Shown piece after piece: positions 1,495 through 16,964 of a DNA stretch of 36,519 bases. A program made the position numbers and the translations under genes. The notes beneath the pieces are model-generated. The model saw only the letters and a program-made list of their open reading frames with translations, ran no database searches and was not told the DNA's origin. The DNA is taken from NCBI GenBank assembly GCA_014859945.1, contig JACZKR010000199.1, positions 1 to 36,519 on the forward strand, written 5' to 3'. This stretch comes from Paracoccaceae bacterium. GTDB lineage: Bacteria > Pseudomonadota > Alphaproteobacteria > Rhodobacterales > Rhodobacteraceae. The number at the start of each line of letters is the position of its first letter. Positions within the stretch are counted from its first letter, which is position 1.

Positions 1495-2616
1495 ATGGCC
1501 AATGGACGCGAGAACCACCGCGAAGACGTCATCGGCCGCGCCAATGTCGAAGATACGCCCGAGCTTCTGGCCTATTATGACCAGCTAGAAGGCTTTCACG
1601 CCGGCGCGCTCTGGACCGTTGCCAACAAGATCGAACCCTGGGCGCCCAAAAGCCAGTCGGTTCCCGTGGTCTGGCGCTATAAGGATCTGCGCGATCATGT
1701 GATCCGCTCGGTCGATCTGGTCACGCCGGAAAAGGCGGGGCGGCGGGTGATCTACCTGAACAACCCCGGGCGGCAGGATGTGGCGGCGGCGGTCGGCTGG
1801 GTTTACGCGGGGCTTCAGGTGATGAACCCGGGCGAGGTCGCGGGCGCGCACCGCCATTCAGCCAGCGCGATCCGCTTCATCATGGAAGGCCGCGGCGCCT
1901 ATACCGTGGTCGATGGCCACAAGATGACGCTGGGCGCGAACGATTTCGTGCTGACCCCCAACGGCACCTGGCATGAACATGGCGTCGCCGAAGACGGCGC
2001 GCTTTGCCTCTGGCAGGACGGGCTGGATATTCCCTTCGTCAACGCGATGGAGGCGAATTTCTATGAGGTTCACCCCGACCTCAATCAGGCCGTGGGCTAT
2101 GCCGTGGACGACATGACCAAGACCTGGGGCAATCCGGGCCTGACGCCCTATGGCGAAAGCTGGAAAAAGGGCTACAGCCCGATGTTCAAATACGAATGGG
2201 CGCCGACCTATGAGTCGCTGGGCAAATACGCCGGTTGCACGGCGGGCAGCCCGTTCGACGGCGTGCTGATGGAATACGTCAATCCGGTTACCAACGGCCC
2301 GGTGATGCAGACGCTGGGCGCTTCGATGCAGATGCTGCGCCCGGGCGAGGCGACGAAGGCCCATCGCCATACCGGCAGCTATCTTTACCACGTCGCCAAG
2401 GGGCGCGGCCATTCCATCATCAACGGCAAGCGGTTCGACTGGCAGGAACGCGACATCTTCTGCGTGCCCTCCTGGGCCTGGCATGAACATGTCAACGCCT
2501 CGGATCGTGAGGATGCGTGCCTCTTCTGCCTCAGCGATCTGCCGGTGATGCGCGCCCTTGGCCTCTATCGTGAAGAGGCATTCGGCGAAAACGGCGGCCA
2601 TCAGCCCCTGCTTTAA
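1495..2616 (+). CDS. gentisate 1,2-dioxygenase-like bicupin ring-cleavage enzyme
   Basis: The 373 residues are the normal size for gentisate 1,2-dioxygenases. Two cupin domains are visible. The first (about 95-190) carries HRHSASAIRFIMEG...TWHEH and the second (about 270-350) HRHTGSYLYHVAKG...AWHEH, so both keep a His-x-His plus distal His metal set. Gentisate dioxygenases are cytosolic Fe(II) enzymes that open 2,5-dihydroxybenzoate to maleylpyruvate, and relatives act on salicylate or hydroxynaphthoate. The next gene is an FAA-family hydrolase, the usual downstream partner. No maleylpyruvate isomerase is nearby, and the rest of the island points to pyridine chemistry, so the real substrate may be a different diol. 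AAGGAG precedes the start. Confidence 0.82.
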   Translation: MANGRENHREDVIGRANVEDTPELLAYYDQLEGFHAGALWTVANKIEPWAPKSQSVPVVWRYKDLRDHVIRSVDLVTPEKAGRRVIYLNNPGRQDVAAAVGWVYAGLQVMNPGEVAGAHRHSASAIRFIMEGRGAYTVVDGHKMTLGANDFVLTPNGTWHEHGVAEDGALCLWQDGLDIPFVNAMEANFYEVHPDLNQAVGYAVDDMTKTWGNPGLTPYGESWKKGYSPMFKYEWAPTYESLGKYAGCTAGSPFDGVLMEYVNPVTNGPVMQTLGASMQMLRPGEATKAHRHTGSYLYHVAKGRGHSIINGKRFDWQERDIFCVPSWAWHEHVNASDREDACLFCLSDLPVMRALGLYREEAFGENGGHQPLL

Positions 2617-2625
2617 GGACGGATT

Positions 2626-3549
2626 ATGAAACTTGTGACCTATCGCGCCTCGGTCGAGGCAGCGGCCCGGCTGGGCGTGCTTCATCAGGAACTTGTCGTC
2701 GATGTCGCCCGCCTGGGGGCTGATCATGGCGAAACCCTGCCCGATTCCATGCTGGGCCTGATCGACACGGGCCGCCCCGGCCTTGAAACCCTCCAGGCCT
2801 GCCTTGATCAGTCGAAGGGCCGCTTCCGGCCCGGCACGGCGACGGCACTGGCCAATGTGAAGCTTCTTGCGCCCATCCCGCGCCCGCGCAAGAACATCTT
2901 CGGCATCGGCCTGAACTATGTCGAACACGTCGCCGAAAGTGCGGCCTCGCTCGACACGTCCAAAGACCTGCCGAAACAGCCGGTGGTGTTTTCCAAGCCG
3001 CCGACCACTGTGATCGGCCCCGACGATGCGATTGAGCATGACAGCAGCATCACCCGGCAACTGGACTGGGAGGTCGAGCTTGCCGTGATCATCGGCACCA
3101 CCGCCCGCCGCATCCGCCGGGATCAGGCACTGGCCCATGTCTTCGGCTATTCGGTGATGATCGACGTTTCAGCCCGCGACAACCGCCGCGCCGGGCAATG
3201 GATCTTCTCCAAGGGGATGGACAGCTATGCTCCCTTCGGTCCGGTGATCGTCACCGCCGATGAAATCCCCGATCCGCAGTGCCTTGACCTCTGGCTGACC
3301 GTCAACGGCGTCGAAAAGCAGCGTTCCAACACCCGCCACATGCTCTTCAAGGTCGATCACCTGATCGCCGACATTTCGTCGGGCATCACGCTGGAACCCG
3401 GTGACATCATCGCTTCGGGCACACCAGAAGGCGTCGGCGCGGGCCGGACGCCGCAGGAATGGCTGCATCCGGGCGATGTGGTAGTGGGCCACGTCGAAGG
3501 CATCGGCACGCTGAGGAACCCGGTGGTAAACTCCACCCCCGAAGCCTGA
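2626..3549 (+). CDS. fumarylacetoacetate hydrolase family protein
   Basis: A 307-residue FAH-family enzyme. The fold's signature runs from about residue 90: IFGIGLNYVEHVAES, VVFSKPPTTVIGPDD, the metal-binding DWEVELAVIIG (Glu-x-Glu), FGYSVMIDVSARD, and ISSGITLEPGDIIASGTPEG near the C-terminus. Family members hydrolyse C-C bonds in acylpyruvates (fumarylpyruvate, fumarylacetoacetate) or act as hydratases or decarboxylases on 2-oxo acids, using Mg or Mn. It starts 9 bp after the cupin dioxygenase, which supports it as hydrolase of the ring-opening product, giving a 2-oxo acid plus a C4 acid. The exact substrate cannot be read from sequence. Confidence 0.85.
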   Translation: MKLVTYRASVEAAARLGVLHQELVVDVARLGADHGETLPDSMLGLIDTGRPGLETLQACLDQSKGRFRPGTATALANVKLLAPIPRPRKNIFGIGLNYVEHVAESAASLDTSKDLPKQPVVFSKPPTTVIGPDDAIEHDSSITRQLDWEVELAVIIGTTARRIRRDQALAHVFGYSVMIDVSARDNRRAGQWIFSKGMDSYAPFGPVIVTADEIPDPQCLDLWLTVNGVEKQRSNTRHMLFKVDHLIADISSGITLEPGDIIASGTPEGVGAGRTPQEWLHPGDVVVGHVEGIGTLRNPVVNSTPEA

Positions 3550-3634: not shown

Positions 3635-4564
3635 ATGTCCACCCCCTTCACCGCCGCTGTCGTGCAGATGGCCTCGCTTCCCGACGATCCGCTGGCCACC
3701 GCCGAAAAGGCTGCCGCCCGCCTGCGTGAGGCAGCGGCCCGCGGCGCAAAGCTCGCGGTTTTCCCCGAAGCGCTGATCGGCGGCTACCCCAAGGGCGCCA
3801 GTTTCGGCGCCCCGATCGGGATGCGCAAACCCGAAGGCCGCGCGGCCTTCGCGCGTTATCACGCCGCCGCTATCGACCTTGACGGACCCGAAGTTGCCCT
3901 GCTGGCCGAAGCGACGGCCGAGACCGGCATCTTCGCCGTTGTGGGCGTGATCGAACGCGATGGCGCCACGCTTTATTGCACGGTGCTTTACTTCGACGGC
4001 GAGAAGGGCCTTGTCGGCAAGCACCGCAAGCTGATGCCCACGGCGGGCGAACGGCTGATCTGGGGTTTCGGCGACGGCTCTACCATGCCCGCTTTCAAGA
4101 CTGCTCTCGGCACCATCGGCGCGGTGATCTGCTGGGAAAACTACATGCCGGCGCTGCGGATGCACATGTATCATCAGGGCGTCAGCCTCTATTGCGCCCC
4201 CACCGCCGATGACCGCGACACCTGGCTGCCTACCATGCAGCACATAGCACTGGAGGGCCGCACCTTCGTTCTGACCGCCTGCCAGCACATCACCCGCGCC
4301 GCCTACGGCCCCGACCATGAAAGCGCGCTGGGCGATGAACCTGACCGCGTGATGATGCGCGGCGGGTCGGCGATCATCTCGCCCTTGGGCCGGGTTCTGG
4401 CCGGGCCGGATTTCAGCGGCGAAACAATCCTTTATGCTGAGATCGACCCCGATGAGGTCATGCGCGCCAAGTTCGATTTCGACGTGACCGGCCATTACGC
4501 CCGGCCCGATGTCTTTGAGATCCGTGTGGACACGCGCCCCAAATCCGCGGTGCGAGAGGTCTGA
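3635..4564 (+). CDS. nitrilase (branch-1 carbon-nitrogen hydrolase)
   Basis: A 309-residue nitrilase-superfamily protein with the full catalytic triad: Glu45 in AVFPEALIGGYPKG, Lys132 in GKHRKLMPT, and Cys166 in GAVICWENYMP. The CWEN(Y)MP context is that of true nitrilases and cyanide-converting enzymes rather than of omega-amidases or N-carbamoylases. The expected reaction is R-CN plus water to R-COOH plus ammonia, with a thioimidate intermediate. It is coupled by an ATGA overlap to the next gene. In this island it could hydrolyse a nitrile substrate before ring attack, or an amide released after ring opening. Which one is not decidable here. Confidence 0.85.
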   Translation: MSTPFTAAVVQMASLPDDPLATAEKAAARLREAAARGAKLAVFPEALIGGYPKGASFGAPIGMRKPEGRAAFARYHAAAIDLDGPEVALLAEATAETGIFAVVGVIERDGATLYCTVLYFDGEKGLVGKHRKLMPTAGERLIWGFGDGSTMPAFKTALGTIGAVICWENYMPALRMHMYHQGVSLYCAPTADDRDTWLPTMQHIALEGRTFVLTACQHITRAAYGPDHESALGDEPDRVMMRGGSAIISPLGRVLAGPDFSGETILYAEIDPDEVMRAKFDFDVTGHYARPDVFEIRVDTRPKSAVREV

Positions 4565-5196
4565 TGCGCTACGATCTGGATCAGGTTCCCCAGCCCATCG
4601 CCTACAAGCTTCTGGCCGCAACGGTCATTCCAAGGCCCATCGCCTGGGTGGTGACGCAGGGGAAGGATGGCCTCAACGCCGCGCCCTATTCCTTCTTCAA
4701 CGTCATGGGCTCGGCGCCGCCCACCATCGCGCTGGGTCTGATGGCGGCCCCGGACCGGGGCTTCAAGGACACCGCGCTGAACATCCTGGAAACCGGCGAG
4801 TTCGTGGTGAATCTGGTGCCCGAACGGCTGGTGCAGGCGATGAACCTGACCGCCGCCGATGCGCCGCGCGGGGTGGATGAGCTGCAGCTGGCCGGATTGG
4901 CCACGCTGCCCTCAACCCACGTTACCCCGCCGCGCATTGCCGAAAGTCCGGTCGCCTTCGAATGCCGCGTGCTGTCCTCGGTGGTGACCGGGCCTTGTCA
5001 GACGGTGGTGATCGGGCGGGTGCTGTCGGTCCATATCGAGGACCGCTATCTGCTGAATGCCGACCGCGCCCATATCGACACCGACGCGCTGGACCTTGTC
5101 GCGCGCAGCTTCGGCTCGGAATACATTCGCAGCCATGACCGGTTCGAGCTTGCCCGCCCCACCTGGGCCGGGCTGAACGCCGCAGGAAAGCCCTGA
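4564..5196 (+). CDS. flavin reductase-like flavoprotein (DIM6/NTAB type)
   Basis: A 210-residue protein with the split-barrel flavin-binding fold: TVIPRPIAWVVTQGKDGLN near residue 20, YSFFNVMGSAPPTIALGL, and NILETGEFVVNLV. This subgroup binds FMN and is found in flavin reductases or flavin-dependent oxygenases of aromatic degradation clusters. The ATG overlaps the nitrilase stop, so the two are probably translationally coupled. It could supply reduced flavin to the acyl-CoA-dehydrogenase-like oxygenase encoded downstream, although a second and more canonical flavin reductase lies at 11022. It is the last gene of the first operon. Confidence 0.75.
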   Translation: MRYDLDQVPQPIAYKLLAATVIPRPIAWVVTQGKDGLNAAPYSFFNVMGSAPPTIALGLMAAPDRGFKDTALNILETGEFVVNLVPERLVQAMNLTAADAPRGVDELQLAGLATLPSTHVTPPRIAESPVAFECRVLSSVVTGPCQTVVIGRVLSVHIEDRYLLNADRAHIDTDALDLVARSFGSEYIRSHDRFELARPTWAGLNAAGKP

Positions 5197-5211: not shown

Positions 5212-5247
5212 TCGAAAGTCGTACGATTTTCGAAAATTATGTTGACA
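5212..5247. promoter_or_regulatory. candidate GntR operator and promoter of the nicX-like operon
   Basis: ATTTTCGAAAAT (5226-5237) is a perfect 12-bp palindrome sharing its core with the site at 1413-1420. It overlaps a larger dyad at 5212-5233, centred on GTAC, in which 10 of 11 base pairs match (TCGAAA on the left, TTTCGA on the right). TTGACA (5242-5247), a consensus -35, follows directly, but no convincing -10 is seen 16-18 bp further on. This 130-bp gap is the only plausible promoter region for the genes from 5327 to 11531. Confidence 0.6.
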
Positions 5248-5318
5248 GGGTTAAGTGCCGCGCTGAAACTTAACTCACAAGTAAAGAAATTCGCGAAACT
5301 GCGAATCGTCAACATGGG

Positions 5319-5328
5319 ATTTCGAAAT
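5319..5328. promoter_or_regulatory. short palindrome overlapping the nicX-like start codon
   Basis: ATTTCGAAAT at 5319-5328 is a 10-bp perfect palindrome with the same TTTCGAAA core as the upstream operator, and its right end runs into the ATG at 5327. It could be a secondary regulator site, or chance. The gene has no obvious Shine-Dalgarno sequence in this stretch. Confidence 0.3.
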
Positions 5329-6379
5329 GCTTCAGGAGCGGGTCGAAGGAAAATGGCTAGCCGCGTTCCGGCGGGTGCTGGCCTTGAACGGGATCGGCAA
5401 GGGCACGCCCATCGCCATCCTGTCGGAAACGCAATCCCGGCCGGTGCTGGTGCATCTGTGTGAACTGGCAGCCTATGACCTTGGCGCCGACTTCTGCATG
5501 ATCCAGATGCCGACGCCGGCCCAGACGGCGCCGGTTCCGGTGAAATCCACCGGCACAAGCTGGGCCATCCAGGGCAACCGCGCGGTGATCGAGGCGCTGA
5601 AGCGCGTCGATGTGATCGTGGACTGCACCGTGGAAGGCCTGATCCACGCCCCCGAATGGCCCGAGATCGAAGAGGCCGGGCGCACGCGCCTTCTGGTCAT
5701 CACCAACGAACACCCCGAGATTCTGGAACGGACCGAGCCCAAGGCCGAACACGGGCCGAAGGTGCAGCTGGGCATCCAGATGCTGCGCGAAGCCTCGGAA
5801 ATGCGGGTCACCTCGGCCCTTGGCACCGACCTGACGGTCAACCTGCGCGGCGCCCCTTGCGGCGGCACGGCCGGCTTTGGCACCACGCCCGGCTCGGTCG
5901 CGCATTGGCCGGGTGGATTGTGCCTGGCCTTCCCGGGTCAGAACGCGGTCAACGGCCGCATCGTGATGGGGGTCGGTGACATGAACCTGACCTTCAAGAC
6001 CTATCTGACCAGCCAGATCGACTTCACCATCGAGAACGACTTCGTCACCGCCATCAAGGGCGACGGCATCGATGCGCTCCACTTCCGCGAATACATGGAA
6101 GCCTGGGACGACCGGAACGCCTACGGCTTCAGCCATGTCGGTTGGGGCATGCACCCCGGCGCCCGCTGGGTTTCGGCTGCCATGTACGACAAGCGCGACA
6201 TGCAGGCGGTCGAGTTCCGGGCGCTTGCCGGTTCGTTCCTGTGGTCGACCGGCGCCAACCAGTATGCCGGGCGCTACACGCTCGGCCATTTCGACCTTCC
6301 CATGCGCAACTGCACCATCGCCCTCGACGGGCGCGTCGTCGTGCGTGACGGCGTCCTGCAAGGAGACCTCGCCCTATGA
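5327..6379 (+). CDS. 2,5-dihydroxypyridine 5,6-dioxygenase-like protein (NicX family)
   Basis: The 350 residues match the length of Pseudomonas putida NicX, an M29-aminopeptidase-like extradiol dioxygenase that opens 2,5-dihydroxypyridine to N-formylmaleamate with Fe(II) and O2. The C-terminal half is clearly related: MGVGDMNLTFKTYLT, YGFSHVGWGMHP and LGHFDLPMRNC correspond to conserved NicX stretches. His270, His321 and Asp323 fall where I recall the NicX iron ligands (His265, His318, Asp320). Start at ATG 5327 gives full-length alignment. It is the first gene of a tightly overlapping operon whose third gene encodes a NicD-like hydrolase, which strengthens the pyridine ring-cleavage reading. 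A ring-substituted analogue remains possible as substrate. Confidence 0.82.
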   Translation: MLQERVEGKWLAAFRRVLALNGIGKGTPIAILSETQSRPVLVHLCELAAYDLGADFCMIQMPTPAQTAPVPVKSTGTSWAIQGNRAVIEALKRVDVIVDCTVEGLIHAPEWPEIEEAGRTRLLVITNEHPEILERTEPKAEHGPKVQLGIQMLREASEMRVTSALGTDLTVNLRGAPCGGTAGFGTTPGSVAHWPGGLCLAFPGQNAVNGRIVMGVGDMNLTFKTYLTSQIDFTIENDFVTAIKGDGIDALHFREYMEAWDDRNAYGFSHVGWGMHPGARWVSAAMYDKRDMQAVEFRALAGSFLWSTGANQYAGRYTLGHFDLPMRNCTIALDGRVVVRDGVLQGDLAL

Positions 6380-7719
6380 ACGTCCAGACCCCCTCTGCCA
6401 CCGTCATGCCGATGAGCAGCCCGGCCGACTATTACGACATGACCCGCGTCCGCCCCGAGGTCGCCGCCGCCATGGCGAAGATCAACGAATTGGGTCCGCT
6501 TTTCGCCGCGCGCGCCAAGGCGGTGGATGACGAGGCGTCCTTCCCGACGGCGAACTACAAGGATCTGGCCGATGCGGGCTTCCTCGGCCTGTCGATCCCG
6601 CAGGAATTCGGCGGCTGGGGCTTTTCGATGGGCGAATACGCCATGGTCGGGGCCGAGATCGCCAAGTACTGCGGCGCGACCGCGCTGACCTTCAACATGC
6701 ACAATTCGTCCATGGCCTGGTCGCGCTTCATGTTCGACATGCCGAACCTGACCGCCGAGGAGAAGGCCGAGTTCGCCCCCCTGCGCGCGCGCCAGTTCAC
6801 CCGGGCGATGAAGGAACGCGCGATCTACTCGCAGCCGATTTCGGAAGGCGGGCAGAACTGGACCTCGAAACCGAACCAGACCCAGTGCCGCGCCACCGAA
6901 GGCGGCTGGAAGATCAACGGGTTCAAGAAGTTCGCCAGCCTTGCGGGCTATTGCGACTATTACACCATCGTCTGCACCGAGGTCTTCGAAGGTATCGAGC
7001 CGCGGCATGAGGACACCATGCTGTTCGTCGTCCACAAGGACGCGCCGGGCCTGACCGTCAAGGGCGACTGGGACCCTCTGGGCATGCGGGGCACCAACAG
7101 CCGCGACCTGATCCTGAAGGATGTCTTCGTCACGGCCGATGACCTGCTGATGCCGCGCGGCATCTTCGGCAAGACGCTGCCCAACTGGCCGCACATGATG
7201 GCCACCCTGTCGCCCACCTACATGGGGGTTGCCCAGGGCGCCTATGATTTCACCATTGCCTATCTGAAGGGCAAGGTTCCGGGCCAGCCGCCGATCGACC
7301 GGCGCATGTATGCGACCAAGCGCGTGGCGATTTCAAAGATGTATGCCCGCCTTGCCAACATGCGGGCGCTGTGGTGGCAGGCTTTCTCGGAAGCCAAGGG
7401 CATGCCGTCCAAGGCCGAAGTGATGCGGATGTATGCCGCGCAGTACAACGTGATGGAGGGCGTGCAGGAAATCACCGCGCTGGCCATCCGCACCTGTGGC
7501 GGCCAGTCGATGCTGAAATCCCTGCCGCTGGAGCGGATGTACCGCGACAGCCGCTGCGGTGCGCTGATGCTGCCCTACACCTCTGAAATCATGGAGGACT
7601 ATATCGGCCTTCTCTCGCTTTATGAGATGGACGAACTGGACAGCGCGCCGGGCGACGAAGGCGGGGCGCGCAGCTCGCTCTGGCGCGGCGATGCCGGCAG
7701 CCTGCGGGGCCTGCGCTGA
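6376..7719 (+). CDS. acyl-CoA dehydrogenase-like flavoprotein, probably a flavin-dependent monooxygenase
   Basis: A 447-residue protein of the acyl-CoA dehydrogenase fold: N-terminal helices (ADAGFLGLSIPQEFGGWGF), a middle beta domain (GWKINGFKKFASLAGYCDYY, DPLGMRGTNSRDL) and a C-terminal helical domain (RTCGGQSM...RMYRDSRCG). Where many acyl-CoA dehydrogenases have the catalytic Glu in an IYEGT motif after the RDxR, this protein reads GALMLPYTSEI, so that Glu is missing. That is seen in relatives that work as two-component flavin monooxygenases (group D, DszC/IacA-like). A flavin reductase in the same operon supports this. The start overlaps the nicX-like stop by ATGA. Fold assignment is firm; monooxygenase activity is inferred. 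Confidence 0.78.
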   Translation: MNVQTPSATVMPMSSPADYYDMTRVRPEVAAAMAKINELGPLFAARAKAVDDEASFPTANYKDLADAGFLGLSIPQEFGGWGFSMGEYAMVGAEIAKYCGATALTFNMHNSSMAWSRFMFDMPNLTAEEKAEFAPLRARQFTRAMKERAIYSQPISEGGQNWTSKPNQTQCRATEGGWKINGFKKFASLAGYCDYYTIVCTEVFEGIEPRHEDTMLFVVHKDAPGLTVKGDWDPLGMRGTNSRDLILKDVFVTADDLLMPRGIFGKTLPNWPHMMATLSPTYMGVAQGAYDFTIAYLKGKVPGQPPIDRRMYATKRVAISKMYARLANMRALWWQAFSEAKGMPSKAEVMRMYAAQYNVMEGVQEITALAIRTCGGQSMLKSLPLERMYRDSRCGALMLPYTSEIMEDYIGLLSLYEMDELDSAPGDEGGARSSLWRGDAGSLRGLR

Positions 7720-9005
7720 TGGGCCGCGACGTCGTTCAGGTTCAGGGCCATCTGCCCCATGCGCCGGACGACGTCTGGCAGACCTTGCGCGATTTCTGCG
7801 GTGTCTGGCATCCGTGGATCGCGACCATGCGGGAAGAACGCGGCCCGGGCGGCGCCCGCATCCGCGCCTTCACCGTGACGGGAGAGGACACGCTTTACCG
7901 CGAGCAGCAGACCTATCTTTCCGACAGCGACCGGGTGCTGGGATACACCCATCTTCAGGGGATCAGGGAATGTGAGGCCTATGACGCCCGCGTCACCGTG
8001 ACCCCTGCCGAAACCGGCGGTTGCCACGTCGGCTGGACGGCCCGGGTCAAGGCGCCTGCCGGCAGGCTGCGTCAGATCTGCGACGGCACGCGCGCGGTGT
8101 TCGAGGCGGGCATCGCAGCCCTGGCACAGCTTCCGGCGCGGGCGCCGGAGCCGAGGGCGGCCCTGCCGGCGCCTGTGGCGGTCGAGACGCTGATCTTTGA
8201 CGACCTTCCGCGTCTGGCGCTGAGCGTGACACCAGAGCGCGGCGACGACCGGCTGTGCCTGTTCCTGCACGGCATCGGCGGCGCGCGGACGAACTGGCTG
8301 GATCAGTTGCAGGCCGTGGGCGGCACGATCCGCGCCGCCGCGCTGGACCTGCGCGGCTATGGCGACAGCAGCCTGGGCGCCCGGCAATCAACGGTCGATG
8401 ACTATTGCGCGGACATCCTGCGGGTGGCCGCGCGGCTGGGCGCGCGGCGGCTGGTGCTGGTGGGCCTGTCCTACGGGTCGTGGATCGCCACGTCCTTTGC
8501 CATGCATCACCCCGAGATGCTGGATGCCCTTGTCCTGTCGGGCGGCTGCACCGGCATGTCCGAAGCCGGCCCCGATGAACGCGAGGCCTTCCGTCTTAGC
8601 CGCGAGGTGCCGCTGAACGCCGGTCAGGTGCCGGCCGATTTCGCTCCCGCAGTGGTCAAGGTGCTGGCCAGCCCCGGCGCTGGCGAAGCGGTCCGCCAAC
8701 GGCTTTATGACAGCATGGCGGCAATTCCCGCCGCGACCTACCGCGATGCGCTGAACTGCTTCACCAATCCGCTTGAGCGCTTTGACTTTTCCCGCCTGAC
8801 CATGCCGGTCCTGCTGATGACGGGTGAGCATGACCGGCTGGCCCCGCCGGCCGAAATCCGTGGCGTTGCCGGGCGCATCTGGGACGCCGCGCCGCGCCCC
8901 GATGTCCGGTTTGAGGTGATCGCGGGCGCGGGCCATGTCTGCAACATCGAAGCGCCCGAAACCTTCTCACGCCACCTTCTGGACCTGATCGGCCGCCTGC
9001 CATGA
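7719..9005 (+). CDS. SRPBCC domain fused to alpha/beta hydrolase (NicD-like)
   Basis: The 428 residues hold two domains. Residues 1-145 look like a START/SRPBCC ligand-binding barrel (polyketide cyclase 2 family; VQGHLPHAPDDVWQTLRDF, ending in a long helix near 130). Residues 155-428 are an alpha/beta hydrolase with oxyanion motif HGIGG (184-188), nucleophile Ser251 in GLSYGS, Asp372 in GEHDRLAPP and His406 in GAGHVCNIEAP. In nicotinate and picolinate degradation an alpha/beta hydrolase (NicD/PicE) removes formate from N-formylmaleamate, the product of NicX. The position two genes after the nicX-like gene suggests the same role here. The fusion to SRPBCC is unusual. It overlaps both neighbours by ATGA. 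Confidence 0.82.
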   Translation: MGRDVVQVQGHLPHAPDDVWQTLRDFCGVWHPWIATMREERGPGGARIRAFTVTGEDTLYREQQTYLSDSDRVLGYTHLQGIRECEAYDARVTVTPAETGGCHVGWTARVKAPAGRLRQICDGTRAVFEAGIAALAQLPARAPEPRAALPAPVAVETLIFDDLPRLALSVTPERGDDRLCLFLHGIGGARTNWLDQLQAVGGTIRAAALDLRGYGDSSLGARQSTVDDYCADILRVAARLGARRLVLVGLSYGSWIATSFAMHHPEMLDALVLSGGCTGMSEAGPDEREAFRLSREVPLNAGQVPADFAPAVVKVLASPGAGEAVRQRLYDSMAAIPAATYRDALNCFTNPLERFDFSRLTMPVLLMTGEHDRLAPPAEIRGVAGRIWDAAPRPDVRFEVIAGAGHVCNIEAPETFSRHLLDLIGRLP

Positions 9006-9688
9006 CCAAACTGCCCCGCCGCGAACAGAACCGCCTGAACCGTGAGCGCCAGATTCTGGACGCCGCGCTGAAGATCTTCGGTGCGACCGGCTATACCGGC
9101 GCCACGATGGATGCCGTCGCGGCCGAGGCCGGGGTGACGAAGCCCACGCTTTATTCCTACTTCCCGTCGAAAGAGTCGCTTTTCCAGGCGATGATGCTGG
9201 GCAAGCGCGACCTGATGCTGGATGTGTTCGAACATCCTTCCAAGGCGGGCATGGTCGCGGATCTTCTGGTTTTCGCCTGGGCCTATGCCGATACGGTCAT
9301 GCGGCCAGAAATGCTGTCGCTGGCCCGTCTGATCATCGGCGAGGTGCAGCGTTTCCCGGAGATCGGCCGGGCCTATCAGGCCAGCGGTCCCGATCACCTT
9401 CTGCGGGGGATCATGCGCTATCTGGAAGGGCAGCGCCGTGCCGGGCGGCTGGCATTCGACGATGCCGAACTGGCCGCGCAGGACCTGTGGGGCCTGATCC
9501 TGTCGGCGCCGCGGACCCAGGCGCTTTACATGCCCGATGCCCTTCCCGACCGGGCCACGCTTGAACGCTATATCCTGAATGGTCTGCGGGTCTTTCTGAA
9601 GGCCTACTCGACCACGCCAGCGCCCGATCTTGAACAACTTGAAGCGCTTAAAGGCGCCCCTTCCCAACAGGTGAACCATGACGCTTGA
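9002..9688 (+). CDS. TetR/AcrR-family transcriptional regulator
   Basis: A 228-residue regulator with a canonical TetR DNA-binding domain at about 10-60 (ILDAALKIFGATGYTGATMD, AGVTKPTLYSYFPSKESLFQ) and a helical ligand-binding C-terminus of the AcrR-C type. It lies inside the operon, overlapping the hydrolase stop by ATGA and the next gene by 11 bp, so its level follows operon transcription. It may provide a second, substrate-responsive layer of control beside the GntR protein. No operator could be assigned to it. Confidence 0.9.
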   Translation: MTKLPRREQNRLNRERQILDAALKIFGATGYTGATMDAVAAEAGVTKPTLYSYFPSKESLFQAMMLGKRDLMLDVFEHPSKAGMVADLLVFAWAYADTVMRPEMLSLARLIIGEVQRFPEIGRAYQASGPDHLLRGIMRYLEGQRRAGRLAFDDAELAAQDLWGLILSAPRTQALYMPDALPDRATLERYILNGLRVFLKAYSTTPAPDLEQLEALKGAPSQQVNHDA

Positions 9689-11018
9689 CGACTTCCTCGC
9701 CGACCCCGGCAGCCGATTTGCCACGGTCGCGATGACGGATACCAACGGCCTTCTGCGCGGTCAGATGGTTTCGGCCCGCAGCCTGAAGGGCGTGGCCAAG
9801 GCCGGCATGGGCATGGCCCCGGCGCAGCTGGCGCTGGACCCGACCGACGTGCATCTGAACCTGCCGGGCGTGAATGACGACTCGGGCGACTTCCACGACG
9901 ATCCGCTGGTCCTTGATCCGGCCAGCGTCCGCCGCCTGCCGTGGTCGAAGCCGGGTCATGACCTTCTGGTGCTGTCGAACTTTACCGGCCAGTCCGGGGA
10001 GCTTTGCCCGCGCTCGATCCTGTCAAAGGTTCTGGCCCGGGCGGCCGAGGCCGGGTTCTTCCCGAAATACGGGATGGAGCTGGAATACACCCTGTTCGAT
10101 GAAACGCCGGAAAGCGCCAAGGCCAAGGGTTATCGCCATCTCAAGCCCGCGACGCTGCATGCCAGCCATGACCTGATCATCTATCAGGCGGTTCAGACCG
10201 AATGGTATGAGGCGCTGGCCGCGATCTGCGAGCCGCTGAAGATCGACCTTGCTAAGATGCACGAGGAAATCGGCGCGGGCTTCATGGAATGCTGCATCGG
10301 CGCGGGTGAGGGGCTGGAACCCGCTGACCAGCTGGTGCTGCTGAAGAACTTCCTGCGGGCGCTGGCCCTGCGACAGGGCAAATCGGTCACCTTCATGCCG
10401 CGCTGGAACGAAGAGGCCGACAGCCAATCGATCCACCTGCACATGAGCCTGAAGGACAAGGCCGGAACCCCGCTGTTCTGGGACGCCAGCCAGAAGAACG
10501 GGGTCAGCCAGCTGTTCCGCTGGTTCTTGGGCGGGCTGCAGGCCTACATCGGCGACATGACCCTGGTCTTCCAGCCCACGGTCAACAGCTATCGCCGCTT
10601 TGCGCCGGGCACCTTCGCGCCGCCCGGGCTGACCTGGGGGTATGAGAACCGCACCACCTGCTTCCGGCTTGTGGGCCATGATCCGGGGTCGCTGCGGGTG
10701 GAAAACCGCCTGCCGGGCGCCGATACCAACCCCTACCTGACCGCCGCTGCCACCCTTGCGGCCGGGATCGCCGGCATCCTTGGCAAGGTCGAACCCGAGC
10801 CCGAGGTCATCGGTTCGGGCTATGCGCAGGCCCCGTCGCGGGACTTTGCCCGCTCGATGCCCGAGGCGATCAGCCGGTTGCGCGGGTCGGCTTTCGCCCG
10901 CGACTGGCTGGGCGACCGCTTCGTCGACGGCTTCACCGCCACCCGCGAAAGCCAGCATGACGAATTCCGCCGCCGGGTTCCCGATGTGGAACTGCAGCGC
11001 TTCTTCGATCTGGGTTAG
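9678..11018 (+). CDS. glutamine synthetase-like ligase
   Basis: A 446-residue protein of the glutamine synthetase fold. The beta-grasp N-terminus (FATVAMTDTNGLLRGQMV) and catalytic motifs are present: MELEYTLF (Glu-x-Glu), SIHLHMSLKD (ATP/metal His), NRTTCFRL and RVENRLPGADTNPYL (Arg-x-Glu-x-Arg). The usual ExGPGQxE loop reads EEIGAGFMECC, unlike housekeeping GlnA. Family members outside GlnA ligate glutamate to amines (putrescine PuuA, methylamide GMAS, isopropylamine IpuC, anilines TdnQ/AtdA1). By context it may gamma-glutamylate an amine substrate or detoxify an amine or ammonia released by the pathway. The substrate is unknown. The start overlaps the TetR gene, which supports co-translation. 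Confidence 0.82.
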   Translation: MTLDDFLADPGSRFATVAMTDTNGLLRGQMVSARSLKGVAKAGMGMAPAQLALDPTDVHLNLPGVNDDSGDFHDDPLVLDPASVRRLPWSKPGHDLLVLSNFTGQSGELCPRSILSKVLARAAEAGFFPKYGMELEYTLFDETPESAKAKGYRHLKPATLHASHDLIIYQAVQTEWYEALAAICEPLKIDLAKMHEEIGAGFMECCIGAGEGLEPADQLVLLKNFLRALALRQGKSVTFMPRWNEEADSQSIHLHMSLKDKAGTPLFWDASQKNGVSQLFRWFLGGLQAYIGDMTLVFQPTVNSYRRFAPGTFAPPGLTWGYENRTTCFRLVGHDPGSLRVENRLPGADTNPYLTAAATLAAGIAGILGKVEPEPEVIGSGYAQAPSRDFARSMPEAISRLRGSAFARDWLGDRFVDGFTATRESQHDEFRRRVPDVELQRFFDLG

Positions 11019-11021
11019 GCC

Positions 11022-11531
11022 ATGGATCTGCGCGCCGCATTCCTTGAAGGCATGAGCCGGGCCGCAACCTTCGTCGCGGTCGCCACGACCGACGGTGAGG
11101 GCGGGCGTTTCGGTGTCACCGTCTCGTCGCTGACCTCGGTTTCGGCCGACGGCGATCACCCCTCGCTTCTGCTGTGTATCCACCATCTGTCGCCGGTGGG
11201 GGCCGCGATCCTGAAGAACCGGTATTTCTGTGCCAATCTTCTGGCCGAACCTCAGCAGGATGTGGCGAACCTCTTCGCGGGGCGCGGCGGTTCGGGCGAC
11301 CACGCCGACCGTTTCACCCGCGCCGCATGGCAGCCGGGCGAACATGGTCAGCCCCTTCTGGCCGGCGCCACCGCCACTTTCGAATGCCGTCTGGCGACGG
11401 CGCTTCTGTGGGAGACCCATCACATCATTGTCGGCCGCGCCACCTCGGTGCGGCTGTCGGACAATTCCTCGGCGCTGCTCTACGGGCAGCGCGCCTACCG
11501 CAAGGCCATCCACCTGACGACTGACACCTGA
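11022..11531 (+). CDS. NAD(P)H:flavin oxidoreductase component
   Basis: The 169 residues form a compact flavin reductase domain of the two-component monooxygenase type: GRFGVTVSSLTSVSADGDHP near residue 30, NRYFCANLLAEPQQDVANLF, and a C-terminal HHIIVGRATSVRL strand. These enzymes reduce FMN or FAD with NAD(P)H and pass it to a partner oxygenase. The best local partner is the acyl-CoA-dehydrogenase-like protein at 6376 in the same operon. The start is 3 bp after the ligase stop. Confidence 0.85.
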   Translation: MDLRAAFLEGMSRAATFVAVATTDGEGGRFGVTVSSLTSVSADGDHPSLLLCIHHLSPVGAAILKNRYFCANLLAEPQQDVANLFAGRGGSGDHADRFTRAAWQPGEHGQPLLAGATATFECRLATALLWETHHIIVGRATSVRLSDNSSALLYGQRAYRKAIHLTTDT

Positions 11532-11611: not shown

Positions 11612-13060
11612 ATGTCTGACACTACCGGAATCGGAACCAACAGGCTTCGACGCAATTCGCTGGGGCTTGTCGCCGTCACCTTCATGGTGATCTCGGCCGC
11701 CGCTCCGCTGACGGGGGTCGCTGGCGCCATGCCGCTGGCCTTCCTCCTGGGCAACGGCACGGGCGTGCCGCTGACCTTCATCCTTCTGACGCTGGTCATG
11801 CTGGCCTTCGCCGCCGGCTATGTCGCGATGAGCCGCCATGTGATCAATGCCGGCGCCTTCTACGCCTATGCCGCGCGCGGCCTTGGCGGCAACGCGGGCG
11901 GGGCCGTCGCCCTGATCGCGCTGGTGGCCTACAACGCCATGCAGTTCGGCCTGATCGGACTTCTGGGCGGGATATCCGCCGGGGTCTTCAGCCAGTTCGG
12001 TCTGACGCTGGACTGGTGGGTTTACAGCCTGATCGCCGTCGTTCTGGTCGGGATTCTGGGCTATCGTCAGGTCGATCTGTCGGCCAAGGTGATGGTGGTT
12101 CTGGTCGGCCTTGAATACCTGATCGTGCTGATCGTCGACTTCGCCATCCTCGGGTCGGGCGGGGCCGAAGGTTCGGGGCTTGCCGTCAACATCTTCGACG
12201 TCTCGGCCCTGACATCGGGTTCGCTGACGGCCGCGGTGCTGTTCTGCCTTGGCTCGTTCATCGGCATCGAGGCGACGACGATCTACGGTGAAGAGGCCCG
12301 TGACCCCGAGCGTACGATCCCGCGCGCGACTTATCTGTCGATCCTGATGATCGGCGTCTTCTTCGTCTTCACCACCTGGCTGATGATCGCCGGCACCGGT
12401 GCCGACAAGCTGATTGAAACCATCGGCGGCCTGCCCGACCCGACGATCCACTTCTTCGTTCTGGCCGAAACCTACACCAATCCGACCGTTTCGATGATTG
12501 CCGGTCTCTTGCTGGTCTCCAGCCTTTTCGCCGCACTTTCGGCCTTCCACAACTACATCGCCCGCTATTCCTATGTCGCGGGCCGCGACGGACTGCTGCC
12601 GGCGGCTTTCGGCCGGACCCATGACGCGCACCAAAGCCCGCATATCGGCTCGGTCGTGCAGACCATCGGCGCGCTGATCGTTCTGGCCGTCTTTGCCGGG
12701 CTGGGTCTGGACCCGATCCTGAACATGTTCACCTGGGTCAGCCAGGTCGGCACGCTGGGCGTGATCGGGATGATGGCCATCACCTCGCTGTCGGTGATCG
12801 TGTTCTTCACGAAGAAGGGCGGGGGTTCGGCGCTGTCAACCCTGATCCTGCCCACCATCGCAGGGCTGATCATGCTGGCGCTGTTCGTCTATATCTTCGT
12901 GAACTACGGCGATCTGACCGGCACCACCGGCGGCGGGCTGAGCGTGATCCTGCCTTCGCTGATCCCGGCGGGCGGTGTTCTTGGCCTTCTGCTGGCCCGG
13001 CGGCTGAATGCGGTGGACCCGGCGCGCTTTACCCGGATGGGAACCACGCTGCCCGACTGA
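11612..13060 (+). CDS. APC-superfamily amino acid/amine permease
   Basis: A 482-residue integral membrane transporter with about 12 hydrophobic segments. The first reads LGLVAVTFMVISAAAPLTGV, the APC family signature region, and GIEATTIYGEEARDPERTIP follows TM6. APC permeases import amino acids, amines and related cations by proton or sodium coupling across the inner membrane. It lies 80 bp after the flavin reductase with a GGAGGGA ribosome site (11602-11608) and may be read through from the same operon. It is the likely uptake system for the island's nitrogenous substrate. It ends at a strong hairpin facing the molybdenum hydroxylase operon. Confidence 0.88.
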   Translation: MSDTTGIGTNRLRRNSLGLVAVTFMVISAAAPLTGVAGAMPLAFLLGNGTGVPLTFILLTLVMLAFAAGYVAMSRHVINAGAFYAYAARGLGGNAGGAVALIALVAYNAMQFGLIGLLGGISAGVFSQFGLTLDWWVYSLIAVVLVGILGYRQVDLSAKVMVVLVGLEYLIVLIVDFAILGSGGAEGSGLAVNIFDVSALTSGSLTAAVLFCLGSFIGIEATTIYGEEARDPERTIPRATYLSILMIGVFFVFTTWLMIAGTGADKLIETIGGLPDPTIHFFVLAETYTNPTVSMIAGLLLVSSLFAALSAFHNYIARYSYVAGRDGLLPAAFGRTHDAHQSPHIGSVVQTIGALIVLAVFAGLGLDPILNMFTWVSQVGTLGVIGMMAITSLSVIVFFTKKGGGSALSTLILPTIAGLIMLALFVYIFVNYGDLTGTTGGGLSVILPSLIPAGGVLGLLLARRLNAVDPARFTRMGTTLPD

Positions 13061-13378: not shown

Positions 13379-15622
13379 TCAGCCCTTCGTCTTCATCGCC
13401 GCAAGGATCTTGGGAGGCGTCATCGGCAGATGGCGCAGCCGGACGCCTGTTGCCGCGTGGATTGCATTGGCAATCGCCGGCAGGGGCGGGGTGATGCCGG
13501 TTTCGCCCACGCCGCGCACGCCATAGGGATGGCCGGGGTTCGGCACCTCGACAATCACCGTATCAATCGGCGGCAGGTCCGAGGCGACGGGAATCCGGTA
13601 GTCCAGGAAGACCGTGTTCTGCAACCGGCCGTCCTTGCCGTAGATGTATTCCTCGTTCAGCGCCCAGCCGATGCCCTGCGCCGCGCCGCCCTGATACTGG
13701 CCTTCCACATAAGCGGGGTGAATGGCCCGACCGGCATCCTGCACCACCAGATAGCGCAGAACCGTCGTGCGCCCCGTTTCGGGGTCCACCTCGACATCGA
13801 CGACATGGGCACCGAAGCTGGCGCCAAAGCCATCCGGCACCGATTCATGGTGGCCCGAGATCGGGCCGCCGGTGCCGCCCATCTTGGAGGCGATCTCGGC
13901 GATGCTCATGGGCGGGAACTTGCCGGCGTTGGGCCCGGCCGGCTGCGCCGCGCCCTGCACCCATTCGACAGCCTCGGGTTCGATCCCCCATTCGGCGGCA
14001 GCGCGGTTGCACATCTCGCGGATGGCGGCCTCGGCGGCGATCACGGCGGCCTTGCCGCTGGCAAAAGTGGCGCGGCTGCCATGCGTCGGTTCGTTCACGC
14101 CAAGCGCGCCGGTTTCGACGATGTTCACCCGCACATCCTCATAGCGGATGCCCAGCGTCTCGGCCGTCATCAGCGCGATGGACGCGCGGCTGCCGCCGAT
14201 GTCCGGCGTGCCGACCGAAACCGTCGCCGTGCCATCCTCGCCGATGGCCAGCGTGACCGAGGTTTCGCCGGCATGGTTGAACCAGAAGCCCGATGCGATG
14301 CCGCGCCCCTGATTAGGCCCCAGCGGCACCGCCAGATTGGGATGCGCGGCGGTGGCTTCCAGCGTCTCGATCAGCCCGATCGAGCCGAAGGTGGCGCCGT
14401 AGCTGGCGGTGTCCCCCTCACGCACGGCGTTCTTCAGCCGCACCGCCATGGGGTCCAGCCCCAGTTCACGGCACATCTCGTCAATCAGGCTTTCCACCGC
14501 AAAGGCGCCCATGGGCGAGCCGGGGGCACGGTAGGCCGCGCATTTCGGCCGGTTGGCCAGCACGTCATAGCCGATGTGCTGAAGCGCCGGGATGGCATAG
14601 GGCGCGAAGGCGCAGTACAGCCCCTCGGCCACCGGCGAGCCGGGGAAGGCGCCGCCCTGCATGCGGAACTCGGCCCGGCCGGCGGTGATCGTGCCGTCCT
14701 TCTTCATGCCGATCTTCACATCCATCGAGGCCGAGGCTGTCGGCCCCGTCGCCCGCAGCACCTCGGACCGGCTCATGACAATCTTGACCGGCCGGCCGCC
14801 TGCCTTGCGCGACAGCGCCAGCGACAGGGGCTCCATGAAGATCGTGGTCTTGCCGCCGAAGCCGCCGCCGATCTCGGAGGGGGTCACGCGCAGCTGTGCG
14901 GCCTCAAGCCCCAGAACGGCGCTGCACATCTTGCGGATATACCACTGACCCTGGGTGCAGACCCACATCTCGCCCTTGCCGTCCGCGCCAAGCTGGCCGA
15001 CGCAGGCATGCGGCTCGATATAGCCCTGATGGGTGGCTTCGGTCTTGTAGGTCTGTTCGCGCACCAGATCGGCCGCGGCAAAGCCTGCGTCGATATCGCC
15101 GCGCCCGAAGTCCAGATAGCGCACCACATTCGGCGGCATCCCCGGGGGGACCGAGGCATCGGCCGCACCTTCGCGGATTACCGGGGCGTCGGGACGGATC
15201 GCGTCATCGACGTCGATCACATGGGGCAGCACCTCATAGGTCACCTCGACCAGCCGCGCCGCCTCTTCCGCCAGAAGGCGTGAGGTGGCAGCCACGGCGG
15301 CCACCGCATGACCGTCATACAGCGCCTTTTCCCCGGCAAGGGTGTTTTCCTGAAGGTTCCAGTCTTCGCCCGTCAGGCCGGTGGGCAGGTCGGCGCGCGT
15401 GACCACGGCCTTCACCCCGTCCAGCGCCAGCGCCTTCGACGCGTCGATCTTCACGATCTTCGCATGGGCATGCGGCGAACGCACCACGGCGCCCCACAGC
15501 ATCCCCGGCAGGGTGGCATCGGCGCCATAGCGGGCGCGGCCCGTCACCTTGTCCAGCCCGTCGGGCCGGTTGGGGCGGGTGCCGACAAGACGGAATTCGG
15601 CCTTCAACTCATCCTTCGGCAT
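13379..15622 (-). CDS. molybdenum hydroxylase large subunit (xanthine dehydrogenase family)
   Basis: The 747-residue molybdopterin-binding subunit of a three-component xanthine oxidase family enzyme. The N-terminal domain (RPDGLDKVTGRARYGADATL) leads to molybdopterin-binding segments (GGGFGGKTTIFMEPLS, AYRAPGSPMGAFAVES). The C-terminal GVRGVGETG motif contains the active-site Glu (about residue 707). These enzymes use water to hydroxylate carbon next to a ring nitrogen or an aldehyde. In nicotinate, picolinate and quinoline pathways they perform the first ring hydroxylation. The ATG overlaps the stop of the iron-sulfur gene. Hydroxylation of the island's heterocycle is the likely role; the exact position is unknown. 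Confidence 0.88.
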   Translation of the reverse strand: MPKDELKAEFRLVGTRPNRPDGLDKVTGRARYGADATLPGMLWGAVVRSPHAHAKIVKIDASKALALDGVKAVVTRADLPTGLTGEDWNLQENTLAGEKALYDGHAVAAVAATSRLLAEEAARLVEVTYEVLPHVIDVDDAIRPDAPVIREGAADASVPPGMPPNVVRYLDFGRGDIDAGFAAADLVREQTYKTEATHQGYIEPHACVGQLGADGKGEMWVCTQGQWYIRKMCSAVLGLEAAQLRVTPSEIGGGFGGKTTIFMEPLSLALSRKAGGRPVKIVMSRSEVLRATGPTASASMDVKIGMKKDGTITAGRAEFRMQGGAFPGSPVAEGLYCAFAPYAIPALQHIGYDVLANRPKCAAYRAPGSPMGAFAVESLIDEMCRELGLDPMAVRLKNAVREGDTASYGATFGSIGLIETLEATAAHPNLAVPLGPNQGRGIASGFWFNHAGETSVTLAIGEDGTATVSVGTPDIGGSRASIALMTAETLGIRYEDVRVNIVETGALGVNEPTHGSRATFASGKAAVIAAEAAIREMCNRAAAEWGIEPEAVEWVQGAAQPAGPNAGKFPPMSIAEIASKMGGTGGPISGHHESVPDGFGASFGAHVVDVEVDPETGRTTVLRYLVVQDAGRAIHPAYVEGQYQGGAAQGIGWALNEEYIYGKDGRLQNTVFLDYRIPVASDLPPIDTVIVEVPNPGHPYGVRGVGETGITPPLPAIANAIHAATGVRLRHLPMTPPKILAAMKTKG

Positions 15623-16101
15623 CAGGCGGCTCCTCTCATTTCGGCGGCGGCATCCTGCACCGCGCGGATGATCTTGTCATAACCCGTGCAGCGGCAGAGG
15701 TTCCCGGCCAGCCAGTAGCGGATTTCGGTATCGGTCGGGTTGGCGTTCTTTTCCAGAAGCGCCTTCGCCGCCACCAGAATGCCCGGCGTGCAGAAGCCGC
15801 ATTGCAGGGCGGCATGTTCGATGAACTTGCGCTGCAGCGGGTGCAGTTCGCCCCCTGTCGCCATTCCTTCGATGGTTTCGACCGTGCGGCCCTGCGCTTC
15901 AACCCCCAGCACAAGGCAGGAACAGACCAGCGTGCCGTCCAGCCGCACCGAACAGGCGCCGCAATCGCCGGTGCCGCAGCCTTCCTTGGAACCGGTCAGC
16001 CCGACATGGTCGCGCAGGCAGTCCAGCAGCGTCTCGCGCGGGTCGGCAAGAAACTCGACCGTATCGCCGTTGACGGTGGTGGTGACGTGTATCCTGCTCA
16101 T
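15622..16101 (-). CDS. molybdenum hydroxylase [2Fe-2S] small subunit
   Basis: A 159-residue protein with the standard two-cluster layout. A plant-type ferredoxin domain has Cys42, Cys47, Cys50 and Cys62 (EGCGTGDCGAC...CSC). A four-helix domain has Cys101, Cys104, Cys136 and Cys138 (QCGFCTPG and LCRCTGY). It passes electrons from the molybdenum centre to FAD. It overlaps the FAD subunit gene by 4 bp and the large subunit gene by ATGA, so all three are co-translated. Length and motifs are normal for CoxS/NdhS-type subunits. Confidence 0.92.
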   Translation of the reverse strand: MSRIHVTTTVNGDTVEFLADPRETLLDCLRDHVGLTGSKEGCGTGDCGACSVRLDGTLVCSCLVLGVEAQGRTVETIEGMATGGELHPLQRKFIEHAALQCGFCTPGILVAAKALLEKNANPTDTEIRYWLAGNLCRCTGYDKIIRAVQDAAAEMRGAA

Positions 16102-16964
16102 TGCTTGCCTCCCCGGGCGCGGTCATAGGCGATCCTGGCGGCGCGTCTTGCCAGAACGCCGGCCACTTCGGTGCGGAACGCGATGGTGCCGCGCTTGTCG
16201 TCGATCGGGCTGCAGGCGGCTTCGGCGGCCTTGGTCAGGGCTGCCAGCGCCGCATCGTCCAGCGCCGTGCCGATGATGGCCTTCGCCGCATCCGGCACAA
16301 GGCGCACGGTCGGCGCCACCGCCCCCAGCACCACGCGGGCGGCGGTGATCGTGGCGCCTTCGACCGTCAGGCTGACAGCGCAGCCCACCACGGCAATATC
16401 CATCTCGGTGCGCGGGATGAAACGCAGATAGGCGTCGCCCCCATGGGCACCCCGCGGCGGCAGCAGCAGGGCCGAGATCACTTCCCCCTTGGTCAACGAG
16501 GTGCGGCCCGGCCCGGTGGGAATATCCTCAACCGCGACGGTCCGCTTGCCCGTCGGACCGGTGATTTCCGCCACGGCGCCGGCCGCGACCAGACCCGGCA
16601 CCGAATCTGCTGCCGGCGAGCCGTTGCACAGGTTGCCGGTCAGCGTCGCGCGTCCCTGCACCTGGGTCGAGCCCACCAGCTCCATCCCCTCGACCACGCC
16701 CGGCCAGTCGGCCTTCAGCCCGGCATGGGCGCCCAGCTGCGCGCCGGCAACCGCCACGCCGATCCGCCAGCCCTCGTCGGCAGTGCGGGAAATCTCGGCG
16801 GTGCCGGGAATTTTCTTGATGTCGATCAGGTCGTCGGGCCGGACCATGGCGGCGCGCAGCTGCACCAGAACATCGGTCCCTCCGGCCAGAAATCGGGTCA
16901 CCCCCGGCGCCTGCGCGGCAAGCTGCGCGGCCTCCTCGAAGGTTTGTGGGGCGTGATAGCGCAT
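16098..16964 (-). CDS. molybdenum hydroxylase FAD-binding subunit
   Basis: A 288-residue medium subunit of the CoxM type. It has the two FAD-binding motifs RFLAGGTDVLVQL (near residue 25-37) and TLTGNLCNGSPAADSVPGL (near 105-123), plus the C-terminal CO dehydrogenase flavoprotein domain. It is the first gene of the operon FAD-FeS-Mo-moaD. Upstream, the 126 bp to the sitD stop contain no clear copy of the ATTTTCGAAAAT box, so regulation with the facing operons is not evident from sequence. GGGAGA precedes the start. Confidence 0.9.
   Translation of the reverse strand: MRYHAPQTFEEAAQLAAQAPGVTRFLAGGTDVLVQLRAAMVRPDDLIDIKKIPGTAEISRTADEGWRIGVAVAGAQLGAHAGLKADWPGVVEGMELVGSTQVQGRATLTGNLCNGSPAADSVPGLVAAGAVAEITGPTGKRTVAVEDIPTGPGRTSLTKGEVISALLLPPRGAHGGDAYLRFIPRTEMDIAVVGCAVSLTVEGATITAARVVLGAVAPTVRLVPDAAKAIIGTALDDAALAALTKAAEAACSPIDDKRGTIAFRTEVAGVLARRAARIAYDRARGGKQ

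Follow-up and report, generated by a model that had tools for sequence, protein, structure and literature searches.

The window, by which we mean the whole stretch of 36,519 nucleotides analysed here, carries on its forward strand a cassette encoding a NicX-type ring-cleaving dioxygenase, an acyl-CoA-dehydrogenase-fold protein and a two-domain protein in which an SRPBCC barrel precedes an alpha/beta hydrolase (Table 1). The three genes keep this order in every related locus with enough sequence, and a TetR gene follows the fusion in nearly all loci that carry it. The nicX-like neighbour mentioned in the earlier note is real and its linkage lasting. The possibility, raised in the same note, that the fusion might be common and unrelated to such neighbours can be set aside, because a NicX gene lies upstream in all of the 34 fused loci in which the sequence suffices. 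The cupin, FAH hydrolase and nitrilase genes were rejected as members of the cassette core since they are present in only a minority of fused loci.

Table 1. Coordinates of the cassette, its candidate control sites and the parts of the fusion gene within the window.
Feature	Position	Strand	Remarks
Gentisate/5-aminosalicylate-dioxygenase-like cupin	1495-2616	+	Optional upstream gene
FAH hydrolase	2626-3549	+	Optional upstream gene
NIT4-like nitrilase	3635-4564	+	Optional upstream gene; near plant NIT4, E=5e-106
Upstream flavin reductase	4564-5196	+	Optional upstream gene
-35-like box (TTGACA) of cassette promoter	5242-5247	+	Kept in most fused loci
Candidate TetR operator, palindrome CTTAACTCACAAGTAAAG	5269-5286	+	Upstream of NicX gene; conserved in relatives
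NicX-type ring-cleaving dioxygenase	5327-6379	+	7cn3 match, E=1e-55; H107, H270, H321, D323 invariant where covered
Acyl-CoA-dehydrogenase-fold protein, probable class D flavin monooxygenase	6376-7719	+	Closest to 5gj7/5z8t
SRPBCC (PF10604; XoxI/PYL-like) domain, residues 1-137	7719-8129	+	Pfam; AF2; Foldseek; profile matches
Variable linker, residues 138-172	8130-8234	+	Least conserved part of alignment
Alpha/beta hydrolase domain, residues 173-428, including stop codon	8235-9005	+	Pfam; Foldseek
S251 codon, nucleophile (GLSYG elbow)	8469-8471	+	Invariant in 33 fused sequences
D372 codon, triad	8832-8834	+	Invariant in 33 fused sequences
H406 codon, triad	8934-8936	+	Invariant in 33 fused sequences
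TetR regulator (TetR_N + TetR_C_7)	9002-9688	+	Pfam; its ATG overlaps hydrolase stop codon
Glutamine-synthetase-like (GlnA-like) ligase	9678-11018	+	Frequent, not universal member
RutF/HpaC-type flavin reductase	11022-11531	+	Likely monooxygenase partner; frequent in fused loci
APC-family permease	11612-13060	+	Frequent in fused loci

An ORF check of the window identified the fusion gene (7719-9005, forward strand) as a single, unbroken reading frame of 428 amino acids. Pfam scored Polyketide_cyc2 (PF10604, SRPBCC; residues 7-137) with 44.9 bits against a cut-off of 27.4 and Abhydrolase_1 (PF00561; residues 181-413) with 74.5 bits against one of 25.8, and the S251-D372-H406 triad was invariant in the alignment of 33 fused sequences and retained in 19 stand-alone relatives. 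These results support the architecture proposed in the earlier note, an SRPBCC domain ahead of an intact hydrolase. An assembly error or frameshift joining two genes can be excluded because 34 loci share the fusion, some of them on complete plasmids; the same reading frame is intact in 32 loci besides the window, and dN/dS is well below 1 in both halves. The full-length AF2 model reached a pLDDT of 92.8 and a pTM of 0.91, the latter suggesting that the domains pack against each other in a defined way. Two relatives (L045 and L046; L numbers designate loci) carry approximately 50 extra residues between the domains, where the DNA has GC-rich inverted repeats; the insert is possibly a palindromic repeat element inside the coding sequence. 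At L018:10001-11255 the reading frame of the fusion changes near position 10891 and the ORF is split, which reflects either a sequencing error or a pseudogene.

The dioxygenase aligned with 7cn3, the solved structure of a 2,5-dihydroxypyridine 5,6-dioxygenase. The four residues listed for it in Table 1, which we take to be the metal-ligand His, His and Asp of NicX plus its active-site His, are conserved in both the fused and the stand-alone clades described below. The dioxygenase belongs to a distinct clade, with at most 39% identity to NicX proteins annotated on plasmids. The acyl-CoA-dehydrogenase-fold protein aligned best with 5gj7 and 5z8t, followed by dehydrogenases and nitrososynthases, and does not retain the catalytic Glu (GEGTSEI segment) of classical acyl-CoA dehydrogenases. 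Given these fold matches, the missing Glu and the flavin reductases encoded nearby, the protein is probably a flavin monooxygenase. The CTTAACTCACAAGTAAAG palindrome, with an expected 0.01 matches in the window, has no other site in the 3.4-Mb genome of the organism. When the pair of promoter and palindrome is defined strictly, it precedes NicX in 18 of 26 fused loci versus none of 17 stand-alone ones. Eight fused loci are without it: L008 and L052 also lack TetR, and the other six carry forms that appear degenerate by eye.

Counting the window, 33 of the 34 fused loci have the fusion as one uninterrupted reading frame. Whole-protein searches retrieved 18 fused relatives among genome contigs and six plasmid records; the finished plasmids include Aminobacter pAA02, Ensifer p1, Sinorhizobium pBSY16_1 and one from Shinella. 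The fusion occurs in Rhodobacterales and Rhizobiales and in a single MAG with the label Chromatiales; within the organism's own order, 11 of 296 genomes have it, its own included. Rhizobiales sequences are interspersed among those of Rhodobacterales in the tree, which, together with the plasmid copies, points to horizontal spread. The literature searched contained no named NicX-monooxygenase-CoA-ligase or SRPBCC-hydrolase-TetR system. The cassette is an apparently undescribed, horizontally spread one for NicX-type ring cleavage whose hydrolase has acquired a ligand-binding barrel.

Searches with the monooxygenase identified a widespread sister cassette (L053, L098-L115) that combines NicX, a stand-alone hydrolase and the monooxygenase, mostly followed by an AMP/CoA ligase (identities of 45-58% for NicX, 24-36% for the hydrolase and 39-54% for the monooxygenase). 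The stand-alone hydrolases share the catalytic triad and the NicX and monooxygenase partners with the window hydrolase, but their cassettes lack the SRPBCC domain, have another gene order and encode a CoA ligase in place of the GlnA-like ligase and TetR. They are nearer kin to the window hydrolase than NicD is, yet stand cleanly apart from the fused clade. The monooxygenase tree splits 19 stand-alone sequences from 32 that accompany double or triple fusions, with 100% SH-aLRT. Five residues (W255, C277, E282, R288 and C408) are fixed in the fused-clade hydrolases and mostly different in the stand-alone relatives and, therefore, hydrolase specificity probably shifted together with the fusion. 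Across the sequences compared, a gained barrel goes with rearranged genes, a lost CoA ligase and an altered active-site surround, and we infer that the barrel-free form is ancestral. On a Dolichospermum plasmid, neither a NicX nor a hydrolase gene is annotated close to the monooxygenase.

The barrel modelled by itself had a pLDDT of 95.5 and a pTM of 0.88, and AF2 and Foldseek together predict a helix-grip fold (E ~2e-9 to PYL and XoxI). The best Foldseek matches were PYL abscisic-acid receptors, XoxI and YPO0625, and profile matches included 2le1, XoxI and PYL3. Invariant in all 33 sequences are W20, F26, W30-H31-P32, R49, E62, Y76, Y88, R116 and T124, of which R49, E62, Y76 and Y88 coincide in part with the R/E/Y/Y positions of XoxI or PYL3. 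In PYL3, the residues aligned with E62 and Y88 are a Glu and a Tyr that line the abscisic-acid pocket (E94 and Y120 of PYR1). The window barrel has in common with XoxI and PYL-type SRPBCC proteins (PF10604) the fold and much of the W/F/R/E/Y/Y pattern; unlike them, it is joined to a hydrolase, and the PYL gate loop is not recognisable in the profile alignment. Informative pairs, which exclude L045/L046 for having too few synonymous changes, gave a dN/dS of ~0.12-0.31 for the barrel and 0.06-0.17 for the hydrolase, ratios indicative of purifying selection on both domains. Mean consensus is 59% in the SRPBCC domain and 76% in the hydrolase, which makes the barrel the faster-evolving half. A search of the organism's own genome for a second copy of the barrel returned the window site alone, and barrel relatives elsewhere occur singly, in pairs and joined to other enzymes. 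Cousins of the barrel in L133-L136 and L139 are fused to MDR-type oxidoreductases (~490 aa) and to a PaaZ-like protein (837 aa), partners that we named by reading their sequence. The cassette offers a tractable system for studying the role of SRPBCC domains joined to metabolic enzymes.

We tentatively propose, with a probability of about 0.4, that the two-domain SRPBCC-hydrolase hydrolyses a product of N-heteroaromatic ring cleavage and that the barrel holds or tautomerises the substrate. The permease would import the compound and the acyl-CoA-dehydrogenase-fold monooxygenase would hydroxylate its ring with reduced flavin supplied by the adjacent reductase. Judging from its family and conserved ligands, the NicX-type Fe(II) dioxygenase would then open the ring. 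The SRPBCC barrel could take up the product in its polar pocket and either present it or set its tautomer for the Ser251-Asp372-His406 hydrolase, whose most likely point of cleavage would be an N-acyl (formamide-type) bond. L008 and L052 keep the SRPBCC-hydrolase in the absence of TetR and operator, so the core role of the barrel is probably enzymatic; these loci tip the balance towards an enzymatic role and away from a purely regulatory one, and they weaken the proposal that the barrel is required for TetR function. The attachment of barrel cousins to metabolic enzymes (MDR-type oxidoreductase, PaaZ-like protein) also supports an enzymatic reading. Counting against substrate holding are the faster evolution of the SRPBCC domain, the tolerance of ~50 residues in the linker of L045 and L046, and the NicX-hydrolase-monooxygenase cassettes without SRPBCC, which indicate that hydrolysis of the ring product does not in itself need a barrel.

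The main alternative, though a less likely one, makes the barrel a sensor that binds a pathway metabolite and thereby controls either the hydrolase or the TetR repressor, a trigger-enzyme arrangement that would report flux to transcription. The nearest folds of the barrel are the ligand-sensing PYL receptors. Further, seven relatives (L015, L020, L047, L048, L049, L050 and L051), from mostly marine Rhodobacteraceae and the Chromatiales MAG, encode SRPBCC, hydrolase and TetR as one in-frame ORF of 650-668 aa. Pfam detected all three parts in the two that we scanned, L048 and L015, with TetR_N and TetR_C_7 intact. The hydrolase-TetR junction of L048 contains no ATG, GTG or TTG codon and TetR can, therefore, hardly be made there except within the fusion. 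All five triple-fusion loci with upstream sequence also carry another palindrome, of the TTACTAAACCGTATAGTAA type, after the promoter region; we infer that this palindrome and CTTAACTCACAAGTAAAG could be TetR sites. Like PutA-type trigger enzymes, the seven relatives unite a catabolic enzyme with a DNA-binding domain in one chain, but theirs is a TetR domain whereas PutA uses a ribbon-helix-helix domain. Against a sensor, the window protein ends before TetR, which 27 loci, the window among them, either encode separately or lack, and the two TetR-less loci have kept the SRPBCC-hydrolase. Moreover, TetR_C_7 is already a ligand-binding domain, and the barrel cousins are attached to enzymes and not to regulators. 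In the monooxygenase tree, which left out L015 and L020 because their monooxygenase sequence was too short, the five remaining triple-fusion loci cluster with the TetR-less L052. The triple fusion is, in any case, a candidate natural TetR-type enzyme-repressor fusion, in which the hydrolase of one lineage acquired its own repressor. It is conceivable, if doubtful, that it works as a one-protein metabolic switch, the ring-cleavage product being bound and hydrolysed by the operator-bound chain so that repression tracks turnover. The window protein would then represent the unfused form, its gene still overlapping the repressor gene at the stop and start codons.

We also consider it improbable that the SRPBCC domain serves chiefly as a module for structure or stability and has no role tied to a particular ligand. 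The faster evolution of the domain and the stand-alone hydrolases of the sister cassettes, which work without a barrel, are consistent with such a module; the invariance of polar residues at the ligand-pocket positions of the family and the dN/dS below 1 count against it.

The hydrolase domain matched the Thermogutta esterase 4uhe, the enol-lactonase 2xua and DxnB2 in Foldseek. Its top NCBIfam match, the 3-oxoadipate enol-lactonase PcaD (TIGR02427), fell below the curated cut-off (93.7 versus 255.85 bits). The NicX-type dioxygenase of the operon speaks for the NicD-like label of the earlier note, and NicD, the N-formylmaleamate deformylase, is likewise a Ser-Asp-His alpha/beta hydrolase encoded beside such an enzyme. 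However, NicD is a single-domain protein with GHSMG in place of GLSYG at the nucleophile elbow. Three hydrolases from nicX clusters with an Asp/Glu racemase and an isochorismatase-type amidase share 56-61% mutual identity, whereas the window hydrolase has 24-26% identity to two of them and no match to the third at 1e-3, values on which NicD orthology was rejected. The NicD partners nicE (maleate isomerase) and nicF (maleamate amidase) had no match in the 34 fused loci, and the nicotinate pathway was rejected on this absence; a NicC-like match occurred in just one of them. The organism's own genome (86% complete) yielded no nicE and only a weak 77-residue match to nicF. Thus, the protein is very unlikely to be a NicD that carries an accessory domain and serves a nicotinate-type 2,5-dihydroxypyridine pathway. 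Its substrate is probably something other than N-formylmaleamate, and the name NicD-like is valid by gene context only. These results also caution against reading nicotinate degradation into the mere pairing of NicX with a hydrolase.

A cassette for N-methylpicolinate (homarine), whose catabolism is the subject of a 2026 paper cited in PMC13390433, is the least likely reading of all. After C5-C6 cleavage, deformylation would, on chemical reasoning, remove a ring carbon as formate and lead towards N-methylglutamate. Such a cassette would suit the marine Roseobacteraceae among the carriers, but many carriers live in soil or freshwater and the fusion is rare in the order. Facing the cassette on the reverse strand (13379-16964) is a three-subunit molybdenum hydroxylase of the xanthine dehydrogenase type, a neighbour not conserved in the related loci checked. 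In L021 and L050, a tripartite tricarboxylate transporter, named from its sequence, takes the place of the APC permease.
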